14,060 nt of DNA from an uncultured Asticcacaulis sp. (lineage in GTDB: Bacteria; Pseudomonadota; Alphaproteobacteria; Caulobacterales; Caulobacteraceae): positions 1 to 14,060 of the forward strand of contig CAMLLA010000062.1 of the NCBI GenBank assembly GCA_946480525.1, written 5' to 3'. The translations under genes and the position numbers were made by a program. The notes under the pieces are model-generated. The model was not told the origin of the DNA, did not search any database, and saw only the letters and a program-made list of their open reading frames with translations. Below, in pieces: positions 183 to 14,060 of this stretch. Positions within the stretch are counted from its first letter, which is position 1, and each line of letters opens with the position of its first letter.

Positions 183-206
183 GCTTAAGCCCTCAAACCG
201 TAAGGT

Positions 207-2822
207 TTAGAACGCGGTACGCAGCGACAGGACGAAGGTACGCGGCGCGCCGACATTGATGAACGGGCGGGTGCCGGCCTTCGTGGCGCCGGTATTGTCG
301 ACATAAGCAAATGCGTTGTTCTGGGACGTGATCGAGCCAAGATACTTTTCGTCGAGCAGGTTAACAACGTTCAGCTGCAGGTAGGTACCCTGCTTCAGGA
401 AGGGCAGGTCGTAGCGGACCGATGCGTCGACCTTCACGAAACCGTCGGCGACTTCGTCGTTGACGTCCGTGGTGAAACGGTCGCCGACATACTTGGCGGT
501 CACGTCGACGTTCAGCCTGCTGGTAGCCTGGTAGTTGACACCCGCCGTGGCCATCCACTTCGGCATTTCGGTCAGTTGCTTGCCCTTGGTCATCAGGTAG
601 CGGCCGACGCCCGTCGCCGTCTTGGCGTATTCCAGGTTATTCTGCATCACGGCGTCGGTGTAGGTCACGCTGCCGTTCAGGACCAGGTTGTCCAACGGCG
701 TCCAGGCCGCAGAACCTTCGAAGCCGTTACGCTTCACCTGGCCGACGTTGCGGTCGAAAGACGCGCCCGAGTCGCGGTCGAAGGCCTGGATGATGCGGTT
801 GTCATCAACAGCCGAGAAGACCGTCGCCGTGCCTTGCAGGGTGGCCGCGCGATAACGCCAGCCAAGTTCGATCGTTTCGCTGGTTTCCGGCTCCGGATTG
901 GCGACGCTGAGGGCGTTGGCCTGGACCCACGCGGTATTGGTCGTCAGCTGCGCCGAGTTGGTCAGCGTCATCGTGGTCGGGATCGGCGTGTCGAAGACAG
1001 CGCCGTAATAGCTGTCGGTACGCGGCGACGACATCGACTGGGCGTAGGTGAAGAACACCTGGTTGCCTTCGTTGATGCGATAGGTCAGGCCCATGTTCGG
1101 CAGCGTCTTCTTGAACGAAACATTGCGCGAATAGGGCGAGAAGTACAGGCCGGTCGTCGTGGCGCTGGTGCCGCTGTTCTGGATTGCGACAACCTTGACG
1201 CCGTCCGACATGGTGACCGTGTTCACCGGTACCTGCGTCGTGCAGTAAGGCGCCGTCGAGCCCGTGCCGTTGATCGGCGAGTAGCAGTATTGGTTCAGCT
1301 CGCGTTCCAGTTTCTGGTCGCGAACGCCGAACGAGACGAATAGAGCGTCGTCAAAGAAGCGGCCGCGATATTCGAACGAAACGACATCGACATTGGCCTT
1401 CGAGAGGCGATCGCGGCGCTTCCAGTAGGAGCCATCAGCCGTCTTGATGCGCAGATCGTGGTTGGTACGGCCACCGAAGACGTCGATGGCCGCGCCATTC
1501 TCGTCGGTCAGGGTCGCTTCACCGGTTTGGCGGTGACGGGCGCGGTCCATCGACACGCCGACACGCAAGACCTGCGAGTCGGTGAGCTGATAGATCAGGC
1601 CGGTGTTCAGGCTGTAGCGGTGTGTGTTGGTCGTGTTCGGACGATAGATGTTCAGGACCGGGTTGGCTGGATTCGGCACTGCCGTCGTCGGGACGGTGCT
1701 GTCATTCGTGCCGTCACCGTTAACGTCGACATAGGCGACAGTGCTGTAGTTGGCGCCGCGCAGTTGCGGGCTGTTTTCCGCCAGGGTCGAATTGCCGCCG
1801 CCGTTGGCCAGGGTGTACTGGAAGGTCGGGTCAACTGTCAGGGTCAGCTTGTCGCTGAGCACCCACTTCGACTGGCCGCGCAGGTTGCCCGTGTTCGACG
1901 GGTTGATGTTGCCTGCATTGATGCTGCTGTAGTCGTAGCCGCAGGTCGGATAGACGTTGAGTGAGGTGCCACCGACAGCCGCGTTGGTGTCGCATTCACG
2001 TTGCGGCGTCGAAGGACCGAACTGGAAGTGGTTACGGTTTTCGTTCCAGTGGCCCGACAGACTCATGAACGAACCTTCGTCGCCGATGTCCTGATAGATG
2101 CGGAAGTTATACTGGTTCTTCTGCAGGTGCGGATTAATGTCCGCGTCGACGCCCGGTTCACGCGTCCAGGTGTCGTAGCTTTGGCCCGTGTAGGCGAAGA
2201 AGGCCTTGGTACCCCAGGGGCCGAATTTGCCCGAATCGAGGCGAACAAACAGTTGCTGGAAGTTGTTCGAGCCACCGCTGATCTTTACGACACCGCCCAT
2301 GGTGTCTTCCGGCTTGCAGGTCGTGTAGTTGACTGTGCCGCCCGAAGCAGAGGCCGACATCGAGTCGACGTCGGTGGCGCCGGTCTGGACCGTCGCCGAG
2401 CAGATCAATTCCGATTCCATCTGCTGGTTGGAGTAGATGGCATAGTTGCCCGAGTCGTTCAGCTGCGTGCCGTCGACGGTCAGCGAGATACGCGCACCAT
2501 CCAGGCCGCGCATCATCACGTTACCGCCCGACGAGCCGAAGGCGTCATTATTGGTGAAGTTATAACCTGGGACCAGGTTGAGCGTTTCAGTGATCGTCTG
2601 GCCGGCCGAGGACTTCGAAATCGTGCCCTGGTCGATCGTAGCCTTGGCTTTGGGGCCCGATTCGCGACGGATCGGACCGGTGGTCTTGTTGCCGCGGATA
2701 ACCACTTCCTGAGTCGGCGCGTCGAGGTCCTGCGTCGCGGTGGATTGGGCGAAGACGCCAGTGGCAACGGCCAGACCAGCAAACGCGGTGCTGGCCAAGA
2801 TGATGGACTTGTTCAATTTCAT
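207..2822 (-). CDS. TonB-dependent outer-membrane receptor, substrate unknown
   Basis: An 871-residue TonB-dependent receptor that should import a scarce ligand across the outer membrane using TonB-ExbBD energy. Residues 1-25 are a signal peptide ending in GVFA before Q26. A TonB-box-like stretch (EVVIRG) lies near residue 40. The plug follows, with the usual NVMMRGLDG and LTVDGTQLND segments, and the barrel runs to a terminal Phe (LSLRTAF), the outer-membrane insertion signal. Late-barrel receptor motifs are present (NPEPETSETIELGWRY, VVNLLDEKY). Six cysteines in plug and loops could form disulfides, and residues 366-374 (DVNGDGTND) look like a calcium-binding loop. The ATG has a good Shine-Dalgarno (GAGGGG, 9-base spacing). 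It is monocistronic: an ompA terminator lies upstream and its own terminator downstream. No neighbouring gene reveals the ligand, and I saw no convincing Fur box upstream. Confidence 0.93.
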   Translation of the reverse strand: MKLNKSIILASTAFAGLAVATGVFAQSTATQDLDAPTQEVVIRGNKTTGPIRRESGPKAKATIDQGTISKSSAGQTITETLNLVPGYNFTNNDAFGSSGGNVMMRGLDGARISLTVDGTQLNDSGNYAIYSNQQMESELICSATVQTGATDVDSMSASASGGTVNYTTCKPEDTMGGVVKISGGSNNFQQLFVRLDSGKFGPWGTKAFFAYTGQSYDTWTREPGVDADINPHLQKNQYNFRIYQDIGDEGSFMSLSGHWNENRNHFQFGPSTPQRECDTNAAVGGTSLNVYPTCGYDYSSINAGNINPSNTGNLRGQSKWVLSDKLTLTVDPTFQYTLANGGGNSTLAENSPQLRGANYSTVAYVDVNGDGTNDSTVPTTAVPNPANPVLNIYRPNTTNTHRYSLNTGLIYQLTDSQVLRVGVSMDRARHRQTGEATLTDENGAAIDVFGGRTNHDLRIKTADGSYWKRRDRLSKANVDVVSFEYRGRFFDDALFVSFGVRDQKLERELNQYCYSPINGTGSTAPYCTTQVPVNTVTMSDGVKVVAIQNSGTSATTTGLYFSPYSRNVSFKKTLPNMGLTYRINEGNQVFFTYAQSMSSPRTDSYYGAVFDTPIPTTMTLTNSAQLTTNTAWVQANALSVANPEPETSETIELGWRYRAATLQGTATVFSAVDDNRIIQAFDRDSGASFDRNVGQVKRNGFEGSAAWTPLDNLVLNGSVTYTDAVMQNNLEYAKTATGVGRYLMTKGKQLTEMPKWMATAGVNYQATSRLNVDVTAKYVGDRFTTDVNDEVADGFVKVDASVRYDLPFLKQGTYLQLNVVNLLDEKYLGSITSQNNAFAYVDNTGATKAGTRPFINVGAPRTFVLSLRTAF

Positions 2823-3326: not shown

Positions 3327-4547
3327 TTAGAACGTGATGTCGATCGTCGAACGACGGTTCAGCGGTTCCTTCACGCCGTCGCCGGTGGCGACTGCAGGCT
3401 CGGCTTCACCCTTCCAGTCAACGGCCAGCTTCGTGGCGTCGACACCCAGACCAGCCAGGGCATCAGCGACAGTCTTGGCGCGACGTTCCGACAGGCGGAT
3501 GTTGTAAGCCGCGGAGCCCGAGGTGTCGGTGTGGCCGACGACTACGATACGGGCGGCGTTGCCGGCCTTGGCGTAGTCAGCGGCGGCCGAAACAACGGCT
3601 TGCGCGTCAGCAGTCAGGTCCGACTTGTCGAATTCGAAGTAGACCGTGAATTCACGCGCTTCGTACACCGGAGCCGGCGGAGGCGGCGGGGGCGGAGGCG
3701 GCGGCGGGGGCGGAGGAGGCGGCGGGGGTGGCGGCGGAGGAGGCGGCGGAGGAGGCGCAGCTTCTTCACCGAAGGCCCAGCGCAGACCGACCGACAGGGT
3801 CTGGTCGTTCAGCTTGCCTTCAAAGTCACCCGGCGTCCAGCCGGCGACCGGGTGCGAGGAGATCGACTCGAAAGTCGCCTTCTCGGTGCCGACGTAACGG
3901 TAGGTCAGGTCGAGGCTCAGACGCTCCGACAACTCCCAGGCCAGACCGGCCAGGAACTGATAGGCCGGAACCGTGTCCGTGCCCTGGATCGTCAGGTGAT
4001 CGACGCGGCCCGACGGGTTCGTCGAGAACTGACCGATCATCTTTGCCTTGATCTGGTTCAGACCAACGCCCACGCCGACGAACGGGTGGAAGGTCGATTC
4101 CGGCAGGATGTCATAGTACAGATTGACGAACAGGCTGGTTTGCGTCAGCGAACCTTCGGGGCCACCGCATTCCGTCGAAGCGGTGCGGATCACGCTCGGC
4201 GTGCAGAGCGCGGTGTCGCGCGTGCCCGAGATGTTCGGATACGAACGCGGGAAGCCGATGGCGGTGTCGACGTCACCAGGACGGTAGCCGCCTTCGAATT
4301 CAACGCGCCAGTTCGGGGTGTAACGGTAACCGAGGCGAGCGAAGCCAGCCCAGGTGTCTTCCGTCGAAATGTCGTAAACAAAAGGACCGCCGTCGACCAT
4401 ATTGTTGGCCGAGCGCGCCTTGTAATCACCCATCGAGTTGTAGCCAGCGTCAAGAGCGCCGTACCACCCGTTAGCTTGTTCAGCGGACGCGCCAGTCGCA
4501 ACCGCCAGTGCAGCGAGCGCAGCGCCCGCTAGCAAATTGAGTTTCAT
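3327..4547 (-). CDS. OmpA-family outer-membrane protein with 27-proline linker
   Basis: A 406-residue outer-membrane protein that should anchor the outer membrane to peptidoglycan. Residues 1-22 are a signal peptide (ATGASA before EQANGWYGALDAGYN). Residues about 23-262 form an OmpA-like eight-strand barrel, ending in TLSVGLRWAFGEE. Residues 265-291 are 27 consecutive prolines. Residues about 297-406 are the OmpA/MotB peptidoglycan-binding domain, with YFEFDKSDL, VVVGHTDTSGS and the LSERRAKTV helix; the Asp and Arg that hold diaminopimelate are present. The protein ends in Phe (STIDITF). The ATG has AGAGGG seven bases upstream. It is a single-gene unit with a strong terminator. Similar two-domain proteins with Pro-rich linkers are common in Caulobacteraceae, but an uninterrupted run this long is unusual. 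Two cysteines in the barrel half (LCTPS, TECGG) may form a loop disulfide. Confidence 0.93.
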   Translation of the reverse strand: MKLNLLAGAALAALAVATGASAEQANGWYGALDAGYNSMGDYKARSANNMVDGGPFVYDISTEDTWAGFARLGYRYTPNWRVEFEGGYRPGDVDTAIGFPRSYPNISGTRDTALCTPSVIRTASTECGGPEGSLTQTSLFVNLYYDILPESTFHPFVGVGVGLNQIKAKMIGQFSTNPSGRVDHLTIQGTDTVPAYQFLAGLAWELSERLSLDLTYRYVGTEKATFESISSHPVAGWTPGDFEGKLNDQTLSVGLRWAFGEEAAPPPPPPPPPPPPPPPPPPPPPPPPPPPAPVYEAREFTVYFEFDKSDLTADAQAVVSAAADYAKAGNAARIVVVGHTDTSGSAAYNIRLSERRAKTVADALAGLGVDATKLAVDWKGEAEPAVATGDGVKEPLNRRSTIDITF

Positions 4548-4926
4548 CTTCTTGCCCTCTCTTGGCCATCAATCGACCAGCCGTTACCCTGGCTGATACA
4601 TAAAGAACAGGCTTTCATAACTTTACGAAGCCATTTTGCATAGCACCGAATTGCGCGTTTGGTTAAATTTGTGCGCATTTCGTCCCGTTTGGTTGTGACT
4701 GACACCTGAAAGCCACGCCTTACGACCGATGCCACTGCATCGCCGCATTTAGGCCTTGTTGCGGGGTAAAAAAGCTATCCCGCCCAGGAAGCGCCGAATA
4801 AAAATCCTATAAGGGACGATAAAAGGCTTGCGAATTCCGAATCCTATGAGTAGGAACACGCCTCTTATCGACCCACGGCCGACTGGCCGCTGACCGCAGC
4901 CAGAGATGGCCGGTGCCCCTGAATAC
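4548..4926. other. Intergenic region between the OmpA-family gene and tRNA-Ser
   Basis: About 380 bases with no gene I can support. It must hold the minus-strand promoter for the OmpA-family gene and the plus-strand promoter for the tRNA, but I found no confident -35/-10 pair for either. The clearest structure is an inverted repeat at 4761-4768 with 4776-4783 (GCGGGGTA, TATCCCGC, one G-T pair), with an A-rich loop and no adjacent T-run. Confidence 0.4.
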
Positions 4927-5016
<90 letters not shown>

Positions 5017-5044
5017 TTCATTTACCTGTAACACCGCCAGTGCG

Positions 5045-6640: not shown

Positions 6641-7321
6641 TTACACCTCCGCCCACTGACGGATCAGATTGTGGTAGTGGCTGGTCAGGCCGACCACCTC
6701 TTCCGAATCTCCCAGGCGCATACGCAGTTTGAGGATGGTCATGTCCAGATCGAACAGCATCTGCCTGCGCACGCCGTCGCGCACCATGCTTTGCGTCCAC
6801 AACACCGAAACGGTCCGGGTACCGCGGGTCACCGGTTCGACGCGGTGCAGGGAGGTCGACGGGTAGAGGATTGCGTCGCCTGCCGGCAACTTGACCTCGT
6901 GAGCGCCATAGGTGTCCTCGATGACCAGCTCGCCGCCATCGTAATCCTCAGGGTCGCTCAGGAATACAGTGGTGGAGATGTCGGTACGGACGCTCAACGA
7001 TGTCGACGGATCGAGATGAATGGCGCTGTCGACGTGGTTGCCGAACGCACCGCCCCCCGAATAACGGTTGAAACGCGGCGGCAGGATGGTCCTGGGCAGG
7101 GCCGCAGACTGAAACATGGGATTGCGCTTCAGCGCACGCGCAATCACCGCGCTGAGCCGCAGATTGGCGGGCTCTTCGTACGGCAACTGCTCCGCGGTCT
7201 TGAGCTTGCTGGCCTGCGCGCCGGCTGTCATGGCGCCATCGCGCCACGGCGCCGCGTCCAGTGCCATACGCAACGACGACAGCTCTTCCGACGTGAGGAG
7301 TTGGGGAATGTGGAGCATCAT
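6641..7321 (-). CDS. piuC: PiuC/YbiX-type Fe(II)/2-oxoglutarate-dependent dioxygenase
   Basis: A 226-residue cytoplasmic PKHD-type hydroxylase, the usual length for PiuC/YbiX. The double-stranded beta-helix core holds the iron-binding triad H96-V-D98 (in GAFGNHVDSAIH) and H159 (TSLHRVEPV), with R169 placed to bind 2-oxoglutarate (GTRTVSVLW). The N-terminal HIPQLLTSEEL is typical. The family sits beside catecholate siderophore receptors (E. coli fiu-ybiX, Pseudomonas piuA-piuC), as here; its exact substrate is not established, and a role in processing imported siderophore is inferred. The start is the first of two adjacent ATGs, with GGAG eight bases upstream. It lies 73 bases after the receptor stop, a gap that contains a terminator-like hairpin, so its expression may be lower than that of the receptor. 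Confidence 0.94.
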   Translation of the reverse strand: MMLHIPQLLTSEELSSLRMALDAAPWRDGAMTAGAQASKLKTAEQLPYEEPANLRLSAVIARALKRNPMFQSAALPRTILPPRFNRYSGGGAFGNHVDSAIHLDPSTSLSVRTDISTTVFLSDPEDYDGGELVIEDTYGAHEVKLPAGDAILYPSTSLHRVEPVTRGTRTVSVLWTQSMVRDGVRRQMLFDLDMTILKLRMRLGDSEEVVGLTSHYHNLIRQWAEV

Positions 7322-7394: not shown

Positions 7395-9695
7395 TCAGAA
7401 ACGGACGCGCGCGGTCAGAGTTGCCGTACGCGGCGCCCCCAGAACCAGTCGGGCGCCTGAATTGTTGAGCGTGCTGACATAGTCTTCGTCGAACAGGTTG
7501 TTCACGTTCAACTGCAGGGCCACCCGGTTGGTCAGGTCGTAGGTCGCCATGGCGTTGGCGACGAAATAGCCATCGATATCCGGCATGTTCTGCGCCGATG
7601 GATTGGCGGACGGATCGACGACGCGCTTCTGTTCGCCGACATACTGGCCGCCAATGCCCGCGCTGAACTTCGGCGTGAACTTGTAGCTGGTCCATACCGT
7701 ACCGGTCAGCTCCGGCGACCAGCGCGTGCTGGCGCCCGCCGAATTGTTGCCAGTCGTGCCTTCCTCGATCTCGGTCTTCATCGTCTGGATACCGGCGGAA
7801 ATCTGCCAGTTCGGGATGATGATGCCGGTCGCGCTGAATTCGAAGCCGCTGACCTTGCGTTCGCCGACCTGGATATAGATGCCGGAACCGACCGGTTCCT
7901 CCTGGGTCAGCTCGTTCTTCGCCACGGTGTTGTAATAGGCAGCCGTCAGGGTCAGCCTGCGGTTGACGTCCCACTTGGCGCCGGCTTCGAAGCTTCCTGT
8001 TTCCTGCGGGTCGAAGATCGGGTTGGCGGCGCTGGACGCTGTGCCGCTTTGCGAGAAGTTCGTTCCACCCGGAGGCGTCAGGGCGTTGCCGTAAGAGACA
8101 TAGAGGCTGGAGGCCGGGGTCGGCTTATAAACGACACCGGCATTCCAACTGACAAGCGTACCGTCACCTTCGAGGCGCGTGACCACAGGCGCCGTCGTCG
8201 TGGTGGCCGCAGCCGCGACATTGGTCGTCATGTCGTAATTGTCGATACGCACTCCGCCGCTGACACGCCACTGCTCGCCGATCTCGATCGTGTCGAAGGC
8301 GTAGGCGGCCAGGGTCGTACTTTCACCGTCGGTATAGGCGCCGGTTGCCAGCGGCGCCGGCAGGACGTCGTTGACGTTCGGAGCGTAAAGATTCGCCGCC
8401 GGAATGACGATGGTCGTCGTCGTATGCGCGACCGGGTCGCTGGCCGCGTTGCCGTATGTGCGGTTGAACTGGCTCTCGTAACCGACTTCGAAACCGACGG
8501 ACAGGTCGTGCCGCACGCTGCCGGACTCGATGGCGAAGCTGTAGTTCGTCTGGTTGAACAGAATGGTGTTTTCCTGGTCGACGCGCTGGCGCGTGCGGGC
8601 GACGGTCCAGGTCGACGGATCGGCCGGCGTTACGGCGGTGAGCGCATTGATGCCGGTCAGGATGCGGTCCATCGTCGTCTTGCCGTAGCGCGAGGTATTG
8701 GTCAGCGTACCGCCGTGCCGGAGGTGGTGGACGATCTTGCCGGACAGCATGGCCGCCTCGACATCTTCATAATCGTTCGGGCTGCCGTAGAAGTTCTCAC
8801 GGTCGACCCTGGCGCCGGTGGCGAGGGCGGACGTGGCATTATAAAAGCCCTTGAGACCGATCGACGGCAGGCCGCCATCGGGCACATTGTCCTGCTTCAG
8901 GTACTGACCGAAGATATAGAAGGTCGTGTCCGTACCGAGACCGACGGCATAGGACGGGGCAATCCCGTAGCCGGAATAGTTCACATAAGAGCGCCCGGCG
9001 GCATCGACGTCCTGGGTCATCAGGTTCAGGCGCAAGGCGCTGGAACCGCTGAGGCGCATATTGGAATCGAGCGTGGCGCGCAACCCGCCCTGACTGAAGG
9101 CGCTGACAACCGCATTTGTGCCGCCCGACAGGTTCGGCAGCTTCGACACCAGGTTGATATAGCCCGAAGAGGCGCCGCGGCCGATATCGGCGCCGGCCGG
9201 CCCCTTGGCCACTTCGACCTGTTCGACATTAAAGACGTCGCGGCTGATGGCGCCCAGGTCGCGGATACCATCAAGGAAGAGCGAGGTCTGGGTCGAGAAG
9301 CCGCGCATCTGGAAGGTATCGCCGGACGCCGTATTGCCGTTTTCCCCCAGTTGCAGGGTGATGCCGGGCGTGTTGCGCAGAGCGTCGGTCAGCGACAGGG
9401 CATTCTGTTCGTCAAGCAATTGACGGCCGATGACGTTCAGGGTCTGAGGCGTATCGAGAAGCGGCTGCGTCTTCTTCGGCGAGCTGACCTCGGTCGCGCG
9501 ATAGCCTTCGCGATGGCCGCGGATCACGGCTTCATCCTCATCGCCATGGCGGTCATGATCGCGTCCGCCATGGTGTTCACCGCGATGCTCACCATGTTCC
9601 TGAGCCATCGCCGCGACGGGCGTGACAACGGCAAGTGCTGCGAGGGCAGCCAGATAGGGAGTGGCCGCGTGCTTGCGGCTGCGGATATGACGCAT
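7395..9695 (-). CDS. fiu: Fiu/PiuA-type catecholate siderophore TonB receptor
   Basis: A 766-residue TonB-dependent siderophore receptor, close in length to E. coli Fiu. Residues 1-31 are a signal peptide (AAMA before QEHGEH). Residues 32-61 are a linker rich in His, Asp and Glu with seven histidines. The plug follows with DTPQTLNVIGRQLL, MRGF and SLFLDGIRDLGAISRDVFN, then EQVEVAKGPAGADIGRGA and INLVSKLP, the hallmark of the catecholate-siderophore group. The barrel ends in TARVRF with terminal Phe. I chose ATG 9695 because TAAGGA lies about eight bases upstream and the signal peptide then starts correctly; an in-frame TTG at 9752 gives an unlikely extension. The gene is followed by piuC, the classic pairing. 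A Fur-like box lies about 80 bases upstream, so iron repression is expected. The ligand is predicted to be a ferric catecholate, not proven. Confidence 0.93.
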   Translation of the reverse strand: MRHIRSRKHAATPYLAALAALAVVTPVAAMAQEHGEHRGEHHGGRDHDRHGDEDEAVIRGHREGYRATEVSSPKKTQPLLDTPQTLNVIGRQLLDEQNALSLTDALRNTPGITLQLGENGNTASGDTFQMRGFSTQTSLFLDGIRDLGAISRDVFNVEQVEVAKGPAGADIGRGASSGYINLVSKLPNLSGGTNAVVSAFSQGGLRATLDSNMRLSGSSALRLNLMTQDVDAAGRSYVNYSGYGIAPSYAVGLGTDTTFYIFGQYLKQDNVPDGGLPSIGLKGFYNATSALATGARVDRENFYGSPNDYEDVEAAMLSGKIVHHLRHGGTLTNTSRYGKTTMDRILTGINALTAVTPADPSTWTVARTRQRVDQENTILFNQTNYSFAIESGSVRHDLSVGFEVGYESQFNRTYGNAASDPVAHTTTTIVIPAANLYAPNVNDVLPAPLATGAYTDGESTTLAAYAFDTIEIGEQWRVSGGVRIDNYDMTTNVAAAATTTTAPVVTRLEGDGTLVSWNAGVVYKPTPASSLYVSYGNALTPPGGTNFSQSGTASSAANPIFDPQETGSFEAGAKWDVNRRLTLTAAYYNTVAKNELTQEEPVGSGIYIQVGERKVSGFEFSATGIIIPNWQISAGIQTMKTEIEEGTTGNNSAGASTRWSPELTGTVWTSYKFTPKFSAGIGGQYVGEQKRVVDPSANPSAQNMPDIDGYFVANAMATYDLTNRVALQLNVNNLFDEDYVSTLNNSGARLVLGAPRTATLTARVRF

Positions 9696-9737
9696 CTTCG
9701 TAGTCCTTAGGTTGCATGGGCCGCCGCTCGGGCGTCC

Positions 9738-9769
9738 GGGGGGAGGAAGCAAGCCGAAGGATGCCCCCC
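9738..9769 (-). promoter_or_regulatory. GC hairpin in the fiu 5' leader
   Basis: GGGGGG at 9738-9743 can pair with CCCCCC at 9764-9769, with a 20-base loop. On the minus strand this lies between the Fur-like box and the fiu start codon, so it would be in the mRNA leader if transcription starts at the box. It has no following T-run. It may affect stability or translation; function is unproven. Confidence 0.35.
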
Positions 9770-9774
9770 TCAGC

Positions 9775-9795
9775 TGCGAATAGGTATCATTTGCA
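9775..9795. promoter_or_regulatory. Fur-like operator upstream of fiu
   Basis: An imperfect palindrome with outer half-sites TGCGAAT and ATTTGCA around the core AGGTATC. Aligned by eye, it matches the 19-bp Fur consensus at 11 positions. It lies 80 bases before the fiu ATG, where a promoter should be. The TGC(G/A)AA half-sites recur in the inverted repeat at 10859-10897. Iron repression by Fur is inferred. Confidence 0.6.
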
Positions 9796-9905: not shown

Positions 9906-10784
9906 TTAGTTTGCCAGGACCTCGAAGGTCGCGGCGTAGGAATAGCGGACGGCGGGCATGTCGGGCGAACCGCCCACGCCCTGGGCCTGGCCACCCTGGC
10001 TTTCGCCGGCCTGACGGCGTGGCGGATAGCTGGCCGTCAGCAGGTGATAGCCCGCCAGTTCCCAGGTGATCGAGACTTCACCGGCCGCATCCGTCGTGCC
10101 GACGATTTCCTTCAGCCCGTTGCGGAAACGACCGCCGTCCGGGATGACGGTGACGCTGAGGCCGGCCAGTGGCTTGCCATCGAGCAGGAAGCGGAACCTG
10201 GCGGCCTCGCCGACGAACAGTTCGCTCGGATGGGTGAGCGGCACGACTTCGAGCCCCTTGCCCGCCGGTGCAAGGACCGTGTCATTCGGCTTGTTGGCGG
10301 AGGCGAAGGTTTCGATGCGGCTGAAGTTCCGCGAAATGCGGACGTCGGCCGCGCCTTGGGGAATCTGCGACTGGTAGTCGGCTTCCGTGCCGCGGAACCG
10401 CTTGGTTTCGCCGTTCAGGGCGTAGCTGCCCGTAACTGTGGCGCCGACGACCGCAATGCGATATGTGCCCGGCGTCTTCAGCTCGACATCGAAAGCCGAG
10501 CGCATCTTGCCCGTCCACTTGTTCTGCGCCTCGACCGGCTGGCCGTCGGGCCCGGTGACAATCAGATTGTCAAGCTTGACCGGCATGTGGTCGAAGTCGA
10601 AAATGCCCTCGGAACTGGCGGCATCGACCGTTACCCACGGCGCCTTGCCTTCGACCTGGGCGGCCGACGGCTTCAACCACTGGCGGTGCGCCTCGGCGCT
10701 CATCGGCGCCAATGCTGCGATCGCAAGCGCGGCCACGCCGCACGCCATACGCAGTCCTTTGAAATTCAGCCCCTTGGTCATCAT
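9906..10784 (-). CDS. Periplasmic DUF4198-domain protein (NikM-like fold family)
   Basis: A 292-residue exported protein of the DUF4198 family. Residues 1-32 form a signal peptide (MSAEA before HRQWLKPS), so the mature protein begins with histidine, as is common in this family and suggestive of metal binding. The body resembles beta-sandwich carbohydrate-binding-like domains: a first domain to about residue 140 (TPGTYRIAVVG) and a second from about 175 (HPSELFVGEAARFRFLLDGKPLAGLSVTVIPDGG, then TDAAGEVSITWELAGYHLL). A Gln/Gly-rich loop precedes the last strand. Two adjacent ATGs occur; the first has only a weak ribosome-binding site (AGG). It follows the PepSY and DUF2271 genes, a recurring trio next to iron receptors, and precedes fiu. 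A role in periplasmic metal handling is inferred; its molecular function is unknown. Confidence 0.88.
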   Translation of the reverse strand: MMTKGLNFKGLRMACGVAALAIAALAPMSAEAHRQWLKPSAAQVEGKAPWVTVDAASSEGIFDFDHMPVKLDNLIVTGPDGQPVEAQNKWTGKMRSAFDVELKTPGTYRIAVVGATVTGSYALNGETKRFRGTEADYQSQIPQGAADVRISRNFSRIETFASANKPNDTVLAPAGKGLEVVPLTHPSELFVGEAARFRFLLDGKPLAGLSVTVIPDGGRFRNGLKEIVGTTDAAGEVSITWELAGYHLLTASYPPRRQAGESQGGQAQGVGGSPDMPAVRYSYAATFEVLAN

Positions 10785-10858: not shown

Positions 10859-10897
10859 TGCAAATCGTTCGCAACAGATTCTTGCGAACGATTTGCA
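10859..10897. promoter_or_regulatory. Perfect 16-bp inverted repeat of Fur-like half-sites
   Basis: Positions 10859-10874 (TGCAAATCGTTCGCAA) are perfectly complementary to 10882-10897 around a 7-base spacer. Each arm is itself an imperfect 7-1-7 palindrome (TGCAAAT C GTTCGCA), the layout of alphaproteobacterial Fur/Irr-type boxes. It begins about ten bases after the DUF2271 stop and lies 75 bases before the DUF4198 start. No T-run follows on the minus strand, so I favour a double operator over a terminator; an mRNA hairpin is the alternative. Confidence 0.55.
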
Positions 10898-10906
10898 TTT
10901 CATTCA

Positions 10907-11431
10907 CTACGGCTTGTAGCTGATCGAGACCGTCCCCAGCTCGCCTACCCCCTTGCCCTGTGCCGTCGTGGCCTTGGCGGGATTATAGGCGACCGGAACG
11001 CGGACCAGGTCGCGGCCGCCGCCTTCACGCGCGGCTTCGACGACAAAGTTATACTGCCCCGCCTGCAGGCCTTTCAGCGCCGCGGCGCTGTCCAGGGTTA
11101 GGGTCTGACGCCCTGGCGCGCGCGTGGCGCCGGTCACGCCGTCCACCGGCAGGGTCATTTCACGCCCGGCCTTGCGCCACCAGGTGCGCACATCCGGCAG
11201 CCACTTCTGGCCGGCGTTTTCACGCTTCTTGACGTCGTACCAGACGAAGACCGTCTTGACGGCCTTGCCATTGGCGTCTTCCAGCCAGCCGGCGATGTAA
11301 GGCTTGTGATACTCCGCCACCTTCTGCTGCGGAATGGTGATGTCCAGGGCCAGTTGACCGGCCTGCGCCACAACGGGCGCTACGGTAAGGATCAGGGCGC
11401 TGCCGCCCCACATCAGGGATTTCGATGCCAT
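10907..11431 (-). CDS. Periplasmic DUF2271 protein with ApbE-type flavinylation motif
   Basis: A 174-residue exported protein of the DUF2271 family. Residues 1-24 form a signal peptide (VVAQA before GQLALDITI). The family core PYIAGWLEDANGKAVKTVFVW spans residues 44-64. Residues 97-103 read DGVTGAT, matching the D-G-x-(S/T)-G-A-T consensus that ApbE flavin transferases modify; T103 would carry covalent FMN. No apbE gene is in the window. The ATG at 11431 has AAGGA about ten bases upstream, overlapping the stop codon of the PepSY gene 13 bases away, so the two are probably translated from one message. The frame stays open upstream into the PepSY gene, but the signal peptide fixes the start. 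A role as a flavin electron carrier with the PepSY protein is inferred. Confidence 0.88.
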   Translation of the reverse strand: MASKSLMWGGSALILTVAPVVAQAGQLALDITIPQQKVAEYHKPYIAGWLEDANGKAVKTVFVWYDVKKRENAGQKWLPDVRTWWRKAGREMTLPVDGVTGATRAPGRQTLTLDSAAALKGLQAGQYNFVVEAAREGGGRDLVRVPVAYNPAKATTAQGKGVGELGTVSISYKP

Positions 11432-11444
11432 GGTTCTGGTGTCC

Positions 11445-12062
11445 TTAAGTATGAACGAACAGGAGGAAGAGAATAACGGGAAGAGCGACACCCGCCGCGA
11501 CCAGCGGCCAGGTGATGGCGCGGTTCCTGGAATAGACCCAGAGAAGCCCAAGGCCGGTGGCCGAAAACACCACGCAGGCCAGGGCCAGGACGTCGATAAA
11601 CCACGACCAGACGATGCCCGTGTGCCGGCCCTTGTGCAGGTCGTTGAGCACGGCGATCGTCCCACGCGTCGTGCGTTCATAGATCAGTTCACCGGTTTCC
11701 GGGATAATGGTGACGGACGAACCTACCCCCGGTCCGGCCAGGTCAACGAATATCTCGTCGTCCGACACATCCGCCGGACGCTTTGCGATATCCGCGCCCG
11801 TTTGCGTCTTGACCGCCGCGACGACGACACCCGGCAGAGGCGCCTTGTCCTTCGCACGCTCAAGCGCCGTCAGCGCCGCTGCGTCCAGAACCTTTTCAAC
11901 GCGAACCGTCTTCGGCTCGGCTTCGAAGTCGGCAGCGTGGTTCAGCGTGTAACCGGTCACCGCAAAGAGCAGCAGACCGGCCAGGCAGACGGCCGAACTG
12001 ATCCAGTGCCACTGGCGAAGCTGGATGCGCCAGAAGTTGGGAGAAAGCTGAAAGCGCGACAT
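11445..12062 (-). CDS. PepSY-type transmembrane protein, putative ferric-reductase component
   Basis: A 205-residue inner-membrane protein of the short PepSY_TM type. A first helix spans about residues 20-40 (WISSAVCLAGLLLFAVTGYTL). A periplasmic PepSY-like domain follows (about 45-140, with IIPETGELIYERTTRG). Two C-terminal helices lie at about 150-175 and 183-203. Histidines flank the helices in pairs: H19 and H42 around helix 1, H143 and H147 before helix 2 (LNDLHKGRHTG); this is the family's usual pattern and could ligate haem. Relatives include proteins tied to siderophore iron release. The ATG has AAGGGG five bases upstream. It is the first gene of the unit with DUF2271 and DUF4198 and has a strong Fur box about 30 bases upstream, so iron-repressed expression is likely. 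Electron-transfer function is inferred. Confidence 0.9.
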   Translation of the reverse strand: MSRFQLSPNFWRIQLRQWHWISSAVCLAGLLLFAVTGYTLNHAADFEAEPKTVRVEKVLDAAALTALERAKDKAPLPGVVVAAVKTQTGADIAKRPADVSDDEIFVDLAGPGVGSSVTIIPETGELIYERTTRGTIAVLNDLHKGRHTGIVWSWFIDVLALACVVFSATGLGLLWVYSRNRAITWPLVAAGVALPVILFLLFVHT

Positions 12063-12092: not shown

Positions 12093-12111
12093 AACAATGA
12101 GAATTATTATC
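12093..12111. promoter_or_regulatory. Fur box of the PepSY-DUF2271-DUF4198 unit
   Basis: Read on the minus strand, GATAATAATTCTCATTGTT matches the classical 19-bp Fur consensus at 14 positions by eye. It lies 30 bases before the PepSY start codon, in the AT-rich part of a 98-base gap where the promoter must be. This is the best Fur site in the window. Confidence 0.8.
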
Positions 12112-12160
12112 AACTAGAAAAAATGTCGCTGATATTGTGGCAATTCCGACATAGACGCTT

Positions 12161-13405
12161 TCAAAGCCTGACCTTCAAGGCCAATTGAATCTGTGTCTGC
12201 ACCCGGCGCGGCGACAGCGATTGATAGGCGCGCGAGGGACGGTTGCTGACCACATGCATTGCTTCAACCATCAGGCCGAGATGGGCATTGAACGGGCGCA
12301 TATAGGCGACCGTCGCGGCATAGCCTTTTTCGGTGTTGTCATCCTTGTTTCGCCACGACCAGTCCTTGACGGCGAAGTAATCGCCCCGGCCCGTCAGCTT
12401 TGCGCCATCGGCGAGCTCGCACGTCGCCAGGACATAGGCGGTGTCGAATGCGACGTCGAAAGTCCAACCGTCAACCCGGCGCCAGCCCATGACGGAGGTG
12501 CCGCGCATATATTGGCCAAGCACTTCGACATTGCCCATGGGCCGCGCCTGGACGCCAAGGTTCCAGAAACGTGTATCCCAACCCCATTGGTCATGCCGCA
12601 TGGCTTCCGGGTCGGCCGCGTTGGCATAGTATTCGAGATTGACGGCAAAGAGCGCCGGTGGCCGCCAGTCGAGGCGGACATATTGGCCGACATTGCTGTC
12701 GATCTCGGCCGAGATATCGCTGAACGGCGCCTGTCCGCCGTCATCAAAAATCGCCGCCCATCCCTTGTTCCCCGCCGGCAAGGGCAAACGGCTGTCGCGA
12801 CCCGACGCTATGTCGTGCAGGGCCCAGCCGCGCCAGGTCAGTATCGTTCCGGAGGTGTCGTTGCCGGTAAAGACCGCGCCCGTCACTCCGAACACATGAC
12901 CGCCAAACGATGTCTGCGCGGACGCTTCCAGAGCATCGACCAGCACTTCCTCGCCGATCCAGGCATTGGCCGCGGACGGCGTAAGCGTACGCGACACCGA
13001 CCAGCCGACGCCGTCGTGCTCCATCGATACCGGCGGGAACATCTGGCCGATCCGGACGGAATATTTCAGGTCCGAGACCGGCACCGGCTTCCACCTGATA
13101 AAGGCTTCTTCCACGGTCAAGGGCGTTGCGGCATCCGGCGTATACTGTGCGACCATATAGCCGGCGACGGTGTCCGCCAGAACCGGCTTCCACACCAAAG
13201 CCGCCTGTGCAAAGGCAAGACGGCTTTCATTGCCGTAGCGCAGCTTGCCGAATCCACCGTCGCGCCAGCTGCGCTCACCATCGGCCGTCACGGCGCGAAT
13301 ATCGATCCAGCCATCCACGTTTTCACGGTTGAACAGTTGCGTTTCGGCGTGCACGCCGGTGGCGGCCGCAAGTCCCAGCAATAGGGCCAGGCACGGTGCC
13401 CTCAC
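12161..13405 (-). CDS. Predicted outer-membrane beta-barrel protein of unknown function
   Basis: A 414-residue exported protein that I cannot assign to a named family. The GTG start at 13405 gives a short signal peptide (about 20 residues, TGVHA before ETQLF). The rest is rich in alternating, aromatic-bearing strands (LAFAQAALVWKPV, VEEAFIRWKPVPVSDLKYSVRIGQMF, WNLGVQARPMGNVEVLGQYMRG, YAATVAYMRPFNAHLGLMVEAMHV), as in porin-like barrels that describe a ligand channel or sensor. The final strand ends in Leu (LALKVRL) rather than the usual Phe. The frame is open 54 codons further upstream inside the EAL gene, but no ATG or GTG there gives an export signal. It starts one base after the EAL stop with only a distant AAAAGG, so translation is probably coupled to the EAL gene. 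No clear terminator follows it. Confidence 0.8.
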   Translation of the reverse strand: MRAPCLALLLGLAAATGVHAETQLFNRENVDGWIDIRAVTADGERSWRDGGFGKLRYGNESRLAFAQAALVWKPVLADTVAGYMVAQYTPDAATPLTVEEAFIRWKPVPVSDLKYSVRIGQMFPPVSMEHDGVGWSVSRTLTPSAANAWIGEEVLVDALEASAQTSFGGHVFGVTGAVFTGNDTSGTILTWRGWALHDIASGRDSRLPLPAGNKGWAAIFDDGGQAPFSDISAEIDSNVGQYVRLDWRPPALFAVNLEYYANAADPEAMRHDQWGWDTRFWNLGVQARPMGNVEVLGQYMRGTSVMGWRRVDGWTFDVAFDTAYVLATCELADGAKLTGRGDYFAVKDWSWRNKDDNTEKGYAATVAYMRPFNAHLGLMVEAMHVVSNRPSRAYQSLSPRRVQTQIQLALKVRL

Positions 13406-13406
13406 C

Positions 13407-14060
13407 TTAGCTGGCGGCCTTTTGCGGTGCGACCAGGCTCGGCAGGGCGCCGGCAATGCCCTTGCGCGAGAAATCCTCGATAAAGGGCACGAGCTTGTCG
13501 AACGACATCGGCTTGGCGATGCCATAGCCCTGAGCCATGTCGCAGCCCATGGCCTGCAACAGGCCAAAGGCAGCCGCGGTTTCCACGCCTTCCGCCGTCA
13601 CCTTCATGCCGAGGCCGTGCGCCAGATCGATCGACGACCTCACCAGCAGGGCATCGCGCTGGCCGCTTTCGATTTCCATGATGAAGGCGCGGTCGATCTT
13701 CAGTTCGTGCGCGGGGATCTGCTTGAGGTAGCTCAGCGACGACAGACCGGTACCGAAGTCGTCGATCGAAATTTCCAGGCCGTGGCTGACAAAGGTATTG
13801 ATCGCGGCCAGGCCGATCGTCGGATCTTCGATGACCGCCGTTTCGGTAATTTCCAGGCAGATGCCGCCGGCGGCGTTATCGCACATGGCCAGCGTGCGGG
13901 CGTTGAACTGTTCGTCGCTCAGCAGGCGGCCGGAATAGTTGATCGATATATCGAGTTCGATGCCCAGCGCCTTCAGGCGCGACTGGTCGGCCAGACAGGT
14001 CTGCAACACCTGAAGCGTCAGGTCGCGGATACAGCCGGTTTCCTCGGCGATACGCACGAA
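13407..14060 (-). CDS. EAL-domain c-di-GMP phosphodiesterase, C-terminal part
   Basis: The last 217 residues of a larger protein whose start lies beyond the right edge; the frame is open to the last base. This is most of an EAL domain, which hydrolyses the second messenger cyclic di-GMP. Visible motifs in order: SINYSGRLL (metal/substrate Asn), LEITETAV (catalytic Glu), ISIDDFGTGLSSLSYLK (paired Asp and loop 6), LKIDRAFI (conserved Lys), VTAEGVET (Glu) and MAQGYGIAKPM (Gln). All catalytic positions I can see are kept, so it is probably active; the EAL signature itself and any sensor or GGDEF domain are off the window. The C-terminal tail is short. It is cotranscribed with the barrel protein that starts one base after its stop codon. 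Confidence 0.93.
   Translation of the reverse strand, partial: FVRIAEETGCIRDLTLQVLQTCLADQSRLKALGIELDISINYSGRLLSDEQFNARTLAMCDNAAGGICLEITETAVIEDPTIGLAAINTFVSHGLEISIDDFGTGLSSLSYLKQIPAHELKIDRAFIMEIESGQRDALLVRSSIDLAHGLGMKVTAEGVETAAAFGLLQAMGCDMAQGYGIAKPMSFDKLVPFIEDFSRKGIAGALPSLVAPQKAAS

Follow-up and report, generated by a model that had tools for sequence, protein, structure and literature searches.

The PepSY-like flavinylated systems are known mostly through genome surveys. From 3220 PepSY-like gene clusters, 2833 with DUF2271 and 1500 with DUF4198, Meheust et al. 2021 proposed that they act as iron reductases (PMC8238504); such a system is defined there by a PF03929 or PF16357 protein encoded no more than five genes from a DUF2271, flavin mononucleotide (FMN)-binding, DUF3570 or ApbE gene, with at least one of these flavinylation genes carrying a signal peptide. 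Covalent attachment of FMN by ApbE is reported on a DUF2271 protein of A. ursilacus (PMC8238504), and the motif read by ApbE, of which seven residues are described as enough, is D-x-x-[S/T]-G-A-[S/T] (PMC12052999). Here we describe a cluster of this kind in a stretch of 14,060 nucleotides (the window) from an uncultured Asticcacaulis sp. (assembly GCA_946480525.1, contig CAMLLA010000062.1), where genes for a PepSY membrane protein, a DUF2271 protein and a DUF4198 protein are joined to a siderophore receptor and a dioxygenase.

Parts of this arrangement have been described elsewhere. The Caulobacter equivalent is reported to be Fur-regulated and to support fitness with ethylenediaminetetraacetic acid (EDTA) (PMC3751524, PMC12004947), and the receptor CciT to require CciO (PMC12004947). 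The PepSY relative FoxB (structure 7abw) is described as a siderophore reductase (PMC12424826), and the DUF4198 protein of Ideonella sakaiensis (9gcb) as binding nickel with a dissociation constant of 18 nM (PMC12537917). Our literature search found no PepSY-DUF2271-DUF4198 module reported to reduce iron.

Gene cluster and proposed function

Five genes follow one another on the minus strand:

11445 to 12062, minus strand: PepSY_TM_like_2 membrane protein, 205 amino acids (Pfam PF16357, E 3e-66; PF03929, E 4.8e-12)
10907 to 11431, minus strand: DUF2271 protein, predicted ApbE substrate, 174 amino acids, Sec-type signal peptide by eye (PF10029, E 1.5e-43)
9906 to 10784, minus strand: DUF4198 periplasmic protein (Pfam), with a signal peptide and a predicted mature N-terminal His33
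7395 to 9752, minus strand: Fiu/CciT-like TonB-dependent siderophore receptor (TIGR01783 above cut-off; 676 bits against 686 for the Fiu model)
6641 to 7321, minus strand: PiuC/YbiX/CciO-like Fe(II)/2-oxoglutarate dioxygenase (NF003975, 326 bits, cut-off 180)

By the definition above the window holds a PepSY-like system: the PepSY and DUF2271 genes are adjacent and the latter has a signal peptide by eye. An apbE gene in the same cluster, which is frequent and non-defining, lies within 66 of 80 related loci and gave no match in the window. An earlier note, made from these letters alone, had placed the first two open reading frames (ORFs) correctly and called them translationally linked; they are adjacent on one strand with 13 nt (11432-11444) between them and no overlap, so that such linkage is only plausible. 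The gap from DUF2271 to DUF4198 is ~120 bp. The catecholate receptor and piuC that the note saw downstream are borne out for the PiuC type, while the receptor is better called Fiu-like, falling 10 bits under the curated Fiu limit. Its position beside the dioxygenase is the arrangement of the CciT-CciO pair, and such a Fiu and PiuC linkage to the cluster is found in 13 of 80 loci of relatives and 14 of 23 loci of the genus (two loci being common to both sets).

We propose, with a probability of roughly two in three, that these genes form a PepSY-like flavinylated module for assimilatory iron reduction, joined to a Fiu/CciT-PiuC/CciO pair and belonging to the Fur regulon. The proposal draws on the parts themselves, the flavinylation motif, conserved histidines, Fur-type sites, gene co-occurrence and a fold match of DUF4198, all found in sequences or predicted structures. 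In the scheme, which assigns a direction and a substrate to the electron flow, haem and FMN to the proteins of this species and a role to DUF4198, electrons would start from NAD(P)H and enter a flavodoxin/flavin adenine dinucleotide (FAD) reductase that seems to be anchored in the membrane once and whose gene lies elsewhere, in a sister genome beside apbE. From the reductase they would pass to two bis-His haems of the PepSY protein, then to FMN held covalently on T103 of periplasmic DUF2271, and from there to ferric iron brought in by the receptor; the released Fe(II) would be bound by the N-terminal histidine of DUF4198 and handed to an inner-membrane Fe(II) importer.

The earlier note had likewise let electrons run through the PepSY protein to FMN on DUF2271 and reduce ferric siderophore in the periplasm. 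The flavinylation site, apbE in relatives, four haem-type histidines, Fur control and link to an iron receptor all stand, and the idea itself is not new, since Meheust et al. 2021 made the same proposal. The paired Fur sites, the separate apbE and reductase locus, the N-terminal histidine of DUF4198 and the signal-less ApbE described below go beyond it.

The flavinylation motif of DUF2271 and the location of apbE

The motif lies where the earlier note had put it, and the window sequence fits the published ApbE motif:

11123 to 11143, minus strand: DGVTGAT flavinylation motif, residues 97-103 (T103 codon 11123-11125)

Two samples were used to follow its conservation, namely an alignment of 47 sequences (the window DUF2271 and 46 among the 120 matches listed, of 2059 found), and 80 genomic loci of relatives, to which all homologue counts out of 80 refer. 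T103 and G98 show no variation in either (47/47 and 80/80), and D97 is kept in 79/80 loci and is absent from the nearly invariant columns of the alignment. Loss of the motif among homologues, which the note had named as a refutation, is therefore not what is seen. T103 of DUF2271 is predicted to carry covalent FMN in this species. The protein is probably exported: the window sequence begins with a hydrophobic segment followed by AQA|G by eye, and hydrophobic starts are found in 80/80 homologues at a threshold of 1.4, a crude test that 7/15 PiuC controls also pass. Twin arginines near the start are missing in 65/80. In ApbE-DUF2271 fusions from the same bacterial family (L152-L164), the [S/T]GA[S/T] pattern is lost in 13/13 fetched, and Thr or Ser occupies the position aligned to T103 in 13/13.

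The presence of apbE was checked in the whole genomes of relatives and, for the source organism, in the window. A genome without apbE was the second refutation offered by the note, and all 80 loci belong to genomes with the gene, 66 having it within the locus and 14 by whole-genome search. The family to which the nearest named relative belongs was sampled with 119 genomes, of which 58 have DUF2271 and 66 have apbE; apbE is present in 58/58 genomes with DUF2271 and in 8/61 without (Fisher p 1.2e-25, uncorrected for kinship). Our survey of 25 genomes of the genus gives DUF2271 in 23/25, PepSY_TM_like_2 in 23/25 and apbE in 24/25. PepSY is missing from the same two genomes as DUF2271, one of which (G051) does have an apbE, adjoining DUF3570, another known ApbE substrate.

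In four of the 23 genus genomes with DUF2271, apbE lies away from it, and all four have the DUF2271-DUF4198-Fiu-PiuC order of the window. The sister genome G042, which aligns with the window in three blocks of 81.6 to 84.4% identity, has its sole apbE match on another contig with a strong Fur-type site (20.6 bits) just upstream; the next gene encodes a protein of 462 aa that has a flavodoxin domain, an NAD-binding domain scoring barely over its cut-off and, close to the N-terminus, a single segment that is hydrophobic by eye. G054 and G035 are split otherwise, with PepSY and apbE behind one Fur site and DUF2271-DUF4198-Fiu-PiuC behind another, and in G053 the two stretches with apbE reach no more than 6.7 and 7.6 bits, which is no strong Fur site. 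Judged from predicted sites, three of these four genomes have parts that are dispersed yet still behind Fur-type sites. This branch offers clean tests of the system type, with parts split over Fur-controlled loci and apbE present wherever the family genomes have DUF2271. At two loci (L107, L108) DUF2271-DUF4198-Fiu-PiuC is found without PepSY, which stands together with apbE elsewhere in the same genomes; at L108 an IstB_IS21 gene and a transposase-type ORF adjoin DUF2271.

Fur-type sites

An exact search with the 19-bp Fur consensus, allowing up to 3 mismatches, gave 0 matches, and sites were therefore scored by counting matches and with a trained model. Training used 12 sites upstream of alphaproteobacterial PepSY genes; the training set excludes the window and L106-L109 and includes L001, L011 and L080, so that the PepSY sites of these three loci are not independent. 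The null was 60 first-order Markov windows (mean maximum 10.7 bits, largest 16.6 bits). Three sites in the window, at 20.1, 18.0 and 18.0 bits, exceed the largest null maximum and the fourth falls below it. The candidates are:

12098 to 12112, minus strand: Fur site before PepSY (19-mer 12093-12111), best in the window, 20.1 bits, 14/19 match
10859 to 10897, no strand assigned: two Fur-type sites, 10859-10873 and 10883-10897, 18.0 bits each, in a perfect 16-bp inverted repeat
9775 to 9789, minus strand: weak candidate Fur site before the receptor, 12.2 bits, within the range of shuffled maxima

The 19-mer before PepSY has 14/19 matches when read along the coding strand and 15/19 along the opposite one, whereas shuffling the upstream region of the window 20 times gave 13/19 at best. 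In the sister locus L106 the 15-mer is identical and lies at equal distance from the PepSY ORF. Among 81 PepSY upstream regions, 49 have a 19-mer count of at least 13, so that a third or more are without a clear Fur site by this count. The inverted repeat is probably a double Fur operator before DUF4198, and both of its arms are kept as Fur-type sites in L106 and L109. A hairpin or terminator was considered for the same repeat and is disfavoured because the stem of L106, whose arms differ at two central positions, is no longer perfect while both 15-bp sites persist; a T-run does not follow. L109 keeps the sites together with perfect complementarity and hence does not discriminate, which leaves L106 as the sole basis of the argument. 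Upstream of the Fiu gene, L107, L108 and L117 have stronger Fur-type sites than 9775-9789. The 14/19 box that the earlier note had seen in control of the pair ranks first in the window by the site model, and control of everything by this single box gives way to a picture with two more sites before DUF4198 and a weak candidate before the receptor.

DUF4198 and the identity of the metal

The DUF4198 protein probably matures with an N-terminal histidine, judging from the cleavage pattern AxA|H, which is found in 79/80 loci:

10686 to 10688, minus strand: His33 codon, predicted N-terminus of the mature DUF4198 protein, from sequence and conservation

The closest folds to the DUF4198 model are Zcp (9mhm), with Cu, Zn and Co bound, and the nickel protein 9gcb, and model residue 33 is aligned with residue 1 of Ni-bound 9gcb. 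The latter match was found by structure only; PDB sequence searches with DUF4198 did not reach it, and neither did a sequence search with a second DUF4198 paralogue.

These folds, together with the nanomolar nickel binding described for the Ideonella sakaiensis protein, are what speaks for another metal, with DUF4198 as a carrier of nickel, zinc or copper and Fur control as cross-talk with iron shortage. We consider this unlikely, though it is the strongest of the competing explanations. The remaining parts suggest iron (Fur-type sites, a siderophore-type receptor and PiuC), and residue 18 of mature window DUF4198 is Trp where the nickel protein has its ligand His18, a comparison made by numbering only. 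Moreover, the DUF4198 protein that does stand beside a HupE_UreJ_2 permease is a divergent paralogue. That paralogue, in Ideonella azotifigens (L137; 1417-2328, minus strand, adjoining the permease gene at 206-970, minus strand), has a setting unlike that of DUF4198 beside PepSY-DUF2271.

The PepSY protein and a possible role in electron transfer

The model of the PepSY protein (predicted local distance difference test, pLDDT, 89.6) has three long helices that we read as transmembrane (TM) (8-41, 150-178 and 184-204). Four histidines are almost invariant across the loci, namely H19 (79/80), H42 (78/80), H143 (80/80) and H204 (79/80), whereas H147 is His in 15/80. The earlier note had seen two His pairs able to bind haem; the four conserved residues are of haem type, and the protein may hold two bis-His haems. 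PDB sequence searches with PepSY, including one with a PepSY profile, did not reach FoxB.

If the iron-reductase proposal is wrong, the PepSY protein could instead be a siderophore permease, with DUF2271 and DUF4198 as periplasmic binding helpers and no electron transfer. PepSY_TM proteins have been interpreted as siderophore permeases in Alteromonas, for which enrichment under iron limitation is reported. We judge this improbable, slightly more so than another metal, since the four near-invariant histidines, the presence of only three TM-like helices, the invariant flavinylation threonine, the co-occurrence with apbE and the description of the relative FoxB as a reductase (PMC12424826) speak against it. 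An equally improbable reading, that DUF2271 is flavinylated and the pair feeds a respiratory or repair enzyme rather than iron, can point to the PepSY_TM protein CrpH, which by its title supports haem-copper oxidoreductase function, and is opposed by the Fiu and PiuC linkage counted above and by the reported loss of fitness of transposon mutants of the Caulobacter equivalent with EDTA.

ApbE without an evident signal peptide

ApbE enzymes that serve exported proteins normally have a lipoprotein signal, and cytosolic ApbE is known for cytosolic targets, according to a review. From its sequence, the ApbE linked to the cluster appears to have no signal peptide although DUF2271 is exported. The cluster type of ApbE starts with a short RVLIP-like segment that leads directly into the catalytic domain. 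The distance from the upstream stop to this conserved N-terminal segment is below 15 codons in 29 of 82 ApbE genes, too short to accommodate a signal peptide; the 82 comprise 77 beside the cluster and 5 in split genomes, and all 29 short starts are among the 77. The stop count omits seven of 89 ApbE rows that did not match the motif pattern (five visible variants and two of the other ApbE paralogue). L053 and L062 lack a usual start codon ahead of the ApbE motif, and in the other 53/82 genes a signal was judged absent by eye from the starts.

Two signal-peptide detectors were also applied. The first was too strict, flagging 0/92 ApbE rows (three loci being double) and just 26/80 DUF2271. The second, at a threshold of 1.8, flagged 59/80 DUF2271, 80/80 DUF4198 and 2/15 PiuC controls, and among ApbE 6/66 and 0/16 beside the cluster, 0/7 in split genomes and 9/13 elsewhere in other genomes; L150, one of the four unflagged in the last group, belongs to the RVLIP-like type. 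With thresholds of 1.2 to 1.6 the detector flagged 15 to 28/66 and 5 to 11/16 linked ApbE and 5 to 7/15 PiuC, and at 2.0 4/66 of the linked ApbE. The detector result is weak evidence, and the in-frame-stop count is firmer. By eye, the ApbE-DUF2271 fusions of the same family have signal peptides in 13/13 fetched. The ApbE of A. ursilacus is described as signal-peptide-truncated (PMC8238504), and a signal-less ApbE is therefore probably not universal for DUF2271.

A single ApbE match is present in 15/23 genus genomes with DUF2271; FMN_bind and NqrB/RnfD occur in 0/25 genus genomes, and DUF3570 in 6/25 and in 0 of the 15 with DUF2271 and a single ApbE. In these 15 genomes DUF2271 is the sole ApbE substrate among the four families tested. 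The six genomes with DUF3570 (G001, G035, G044, G049, G051 and G053) have an ApbE match within ~150 bases each time. Three DUF3570-linked ApbE starts (L129, L132 and L151) were also fetched and have no signal-like start, and the compartment question may thus extend to DUF3570.

An ApbE without an evident signal does not fit simple periplasmic flavinylation. Three explanations are conceivable: FMN is attached ahead of export, ApbE is itself moved with no known signal, or DUF2271 is left unmodified here. We tentatively suggest, at clearly less than even odds, that a signal-less cytoplasmic ApbE may put the flavin on the unfolded DUF2271 precursor and that the flavinylated chain is then exported; in this reading, too, DUF4198 would pick up the Fe(II) with its N-terminal histidine. 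Our literature search found no paper on the mismatch in compartment between signal-less ApbE and exported DUF2271. The question has a wider bearing, as many genomes have just one ApbE, with no evident signal, which would have to act on an exported protein. If flavinylated chains can be exported, the view of how extracytosolic flavoproteins are made would change; if not, ApbE would reach the periplasm by an unrecognised route.

Other features of the window

Elsewhere in the window, an OmpA-type protein (3327-4547, minus strand) has a very long unbroken proline linker between its barrel and OmpA domain. The ORF at 4749-5021 (minus strand), reading GGEGGIRTHGRLAPTPHFECGTFDHSATSP, overlaps a tRNA-Ser(CGA) gene on the opposite strand (4927-5016) and is probably spurious. 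Another ORF (12161-13567, minus strand) encodes 468 aa that are porin-like by eye and without a Pfam match, and as mechanically called it overlaps an EAL-domain ORF (13407-14057). PADLOC gave no matches.

Comparison with known systems

The DUF4198 protein shares its fold with 9gcb and Zcp (9mhm), and with 9gcb the N-terminal histidine (PMC12537917). By numbering it appears to lack the second ligand His18 of 9gcb, and the sequence alignment, compared at the H142 region of Zcp, has no His there. HiuABC and FoxB resemble the cluster in having an inner-membrane protein of the PepSY family that is proposed to reduce imported ferric siderophore (PMC12424826); in HiuABC, however, HiuB pairs with HiuC, and DUF2271 has 0 occurrences in the main text of that paper.

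A closer counterpart is CCNA_03155-03159 of Caulobacter crescentus, in which PepSY, DUF2271 and DUF4198 are reported under Fur (PMC3751524, PMC12004947) and the fourth and fifth genes, for ApbE and a sulfite-reductase-type flavoprotein, match the apbE-reductase pair of G042 (PMC3751524). Caulobacter is described as having a single five-gene cluster with cciT-cciO elsewhere, whereas the window has cciT-cciO-like genes joined to the cluster and no apbE. The pair itself is like CciT-CciO, Fiu-YbiX and PiuA-PiuC, an adjacent and iron-linked receptor and 2-oxoglutarate-Fe(II) dioxygenase (PMC12004947), and is unlike them, as described, in standing directly downstream of DUF4198 and a flavin module. 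The joining hints at the receptor to which the reductase belongs in this cluster, a point that bears on CciT-CciO as well.

The PepSY-like system of Meheust et al. 2021 has, as described, the same PF16357/PF03929 protein, DUF2271 with [S/T]GA[S/T], DUF4198, iron and TonB links and Fur control. The window cluster departs from it in being without apbE, in being joined to Fiu-PiuC and in having Fur sites before both PepSY and DUF4198, and the sister genome in carrying apbE and the reductase at a separate Fur-controlled place. The type of system is already known from print, and the window adds an unusual layout.
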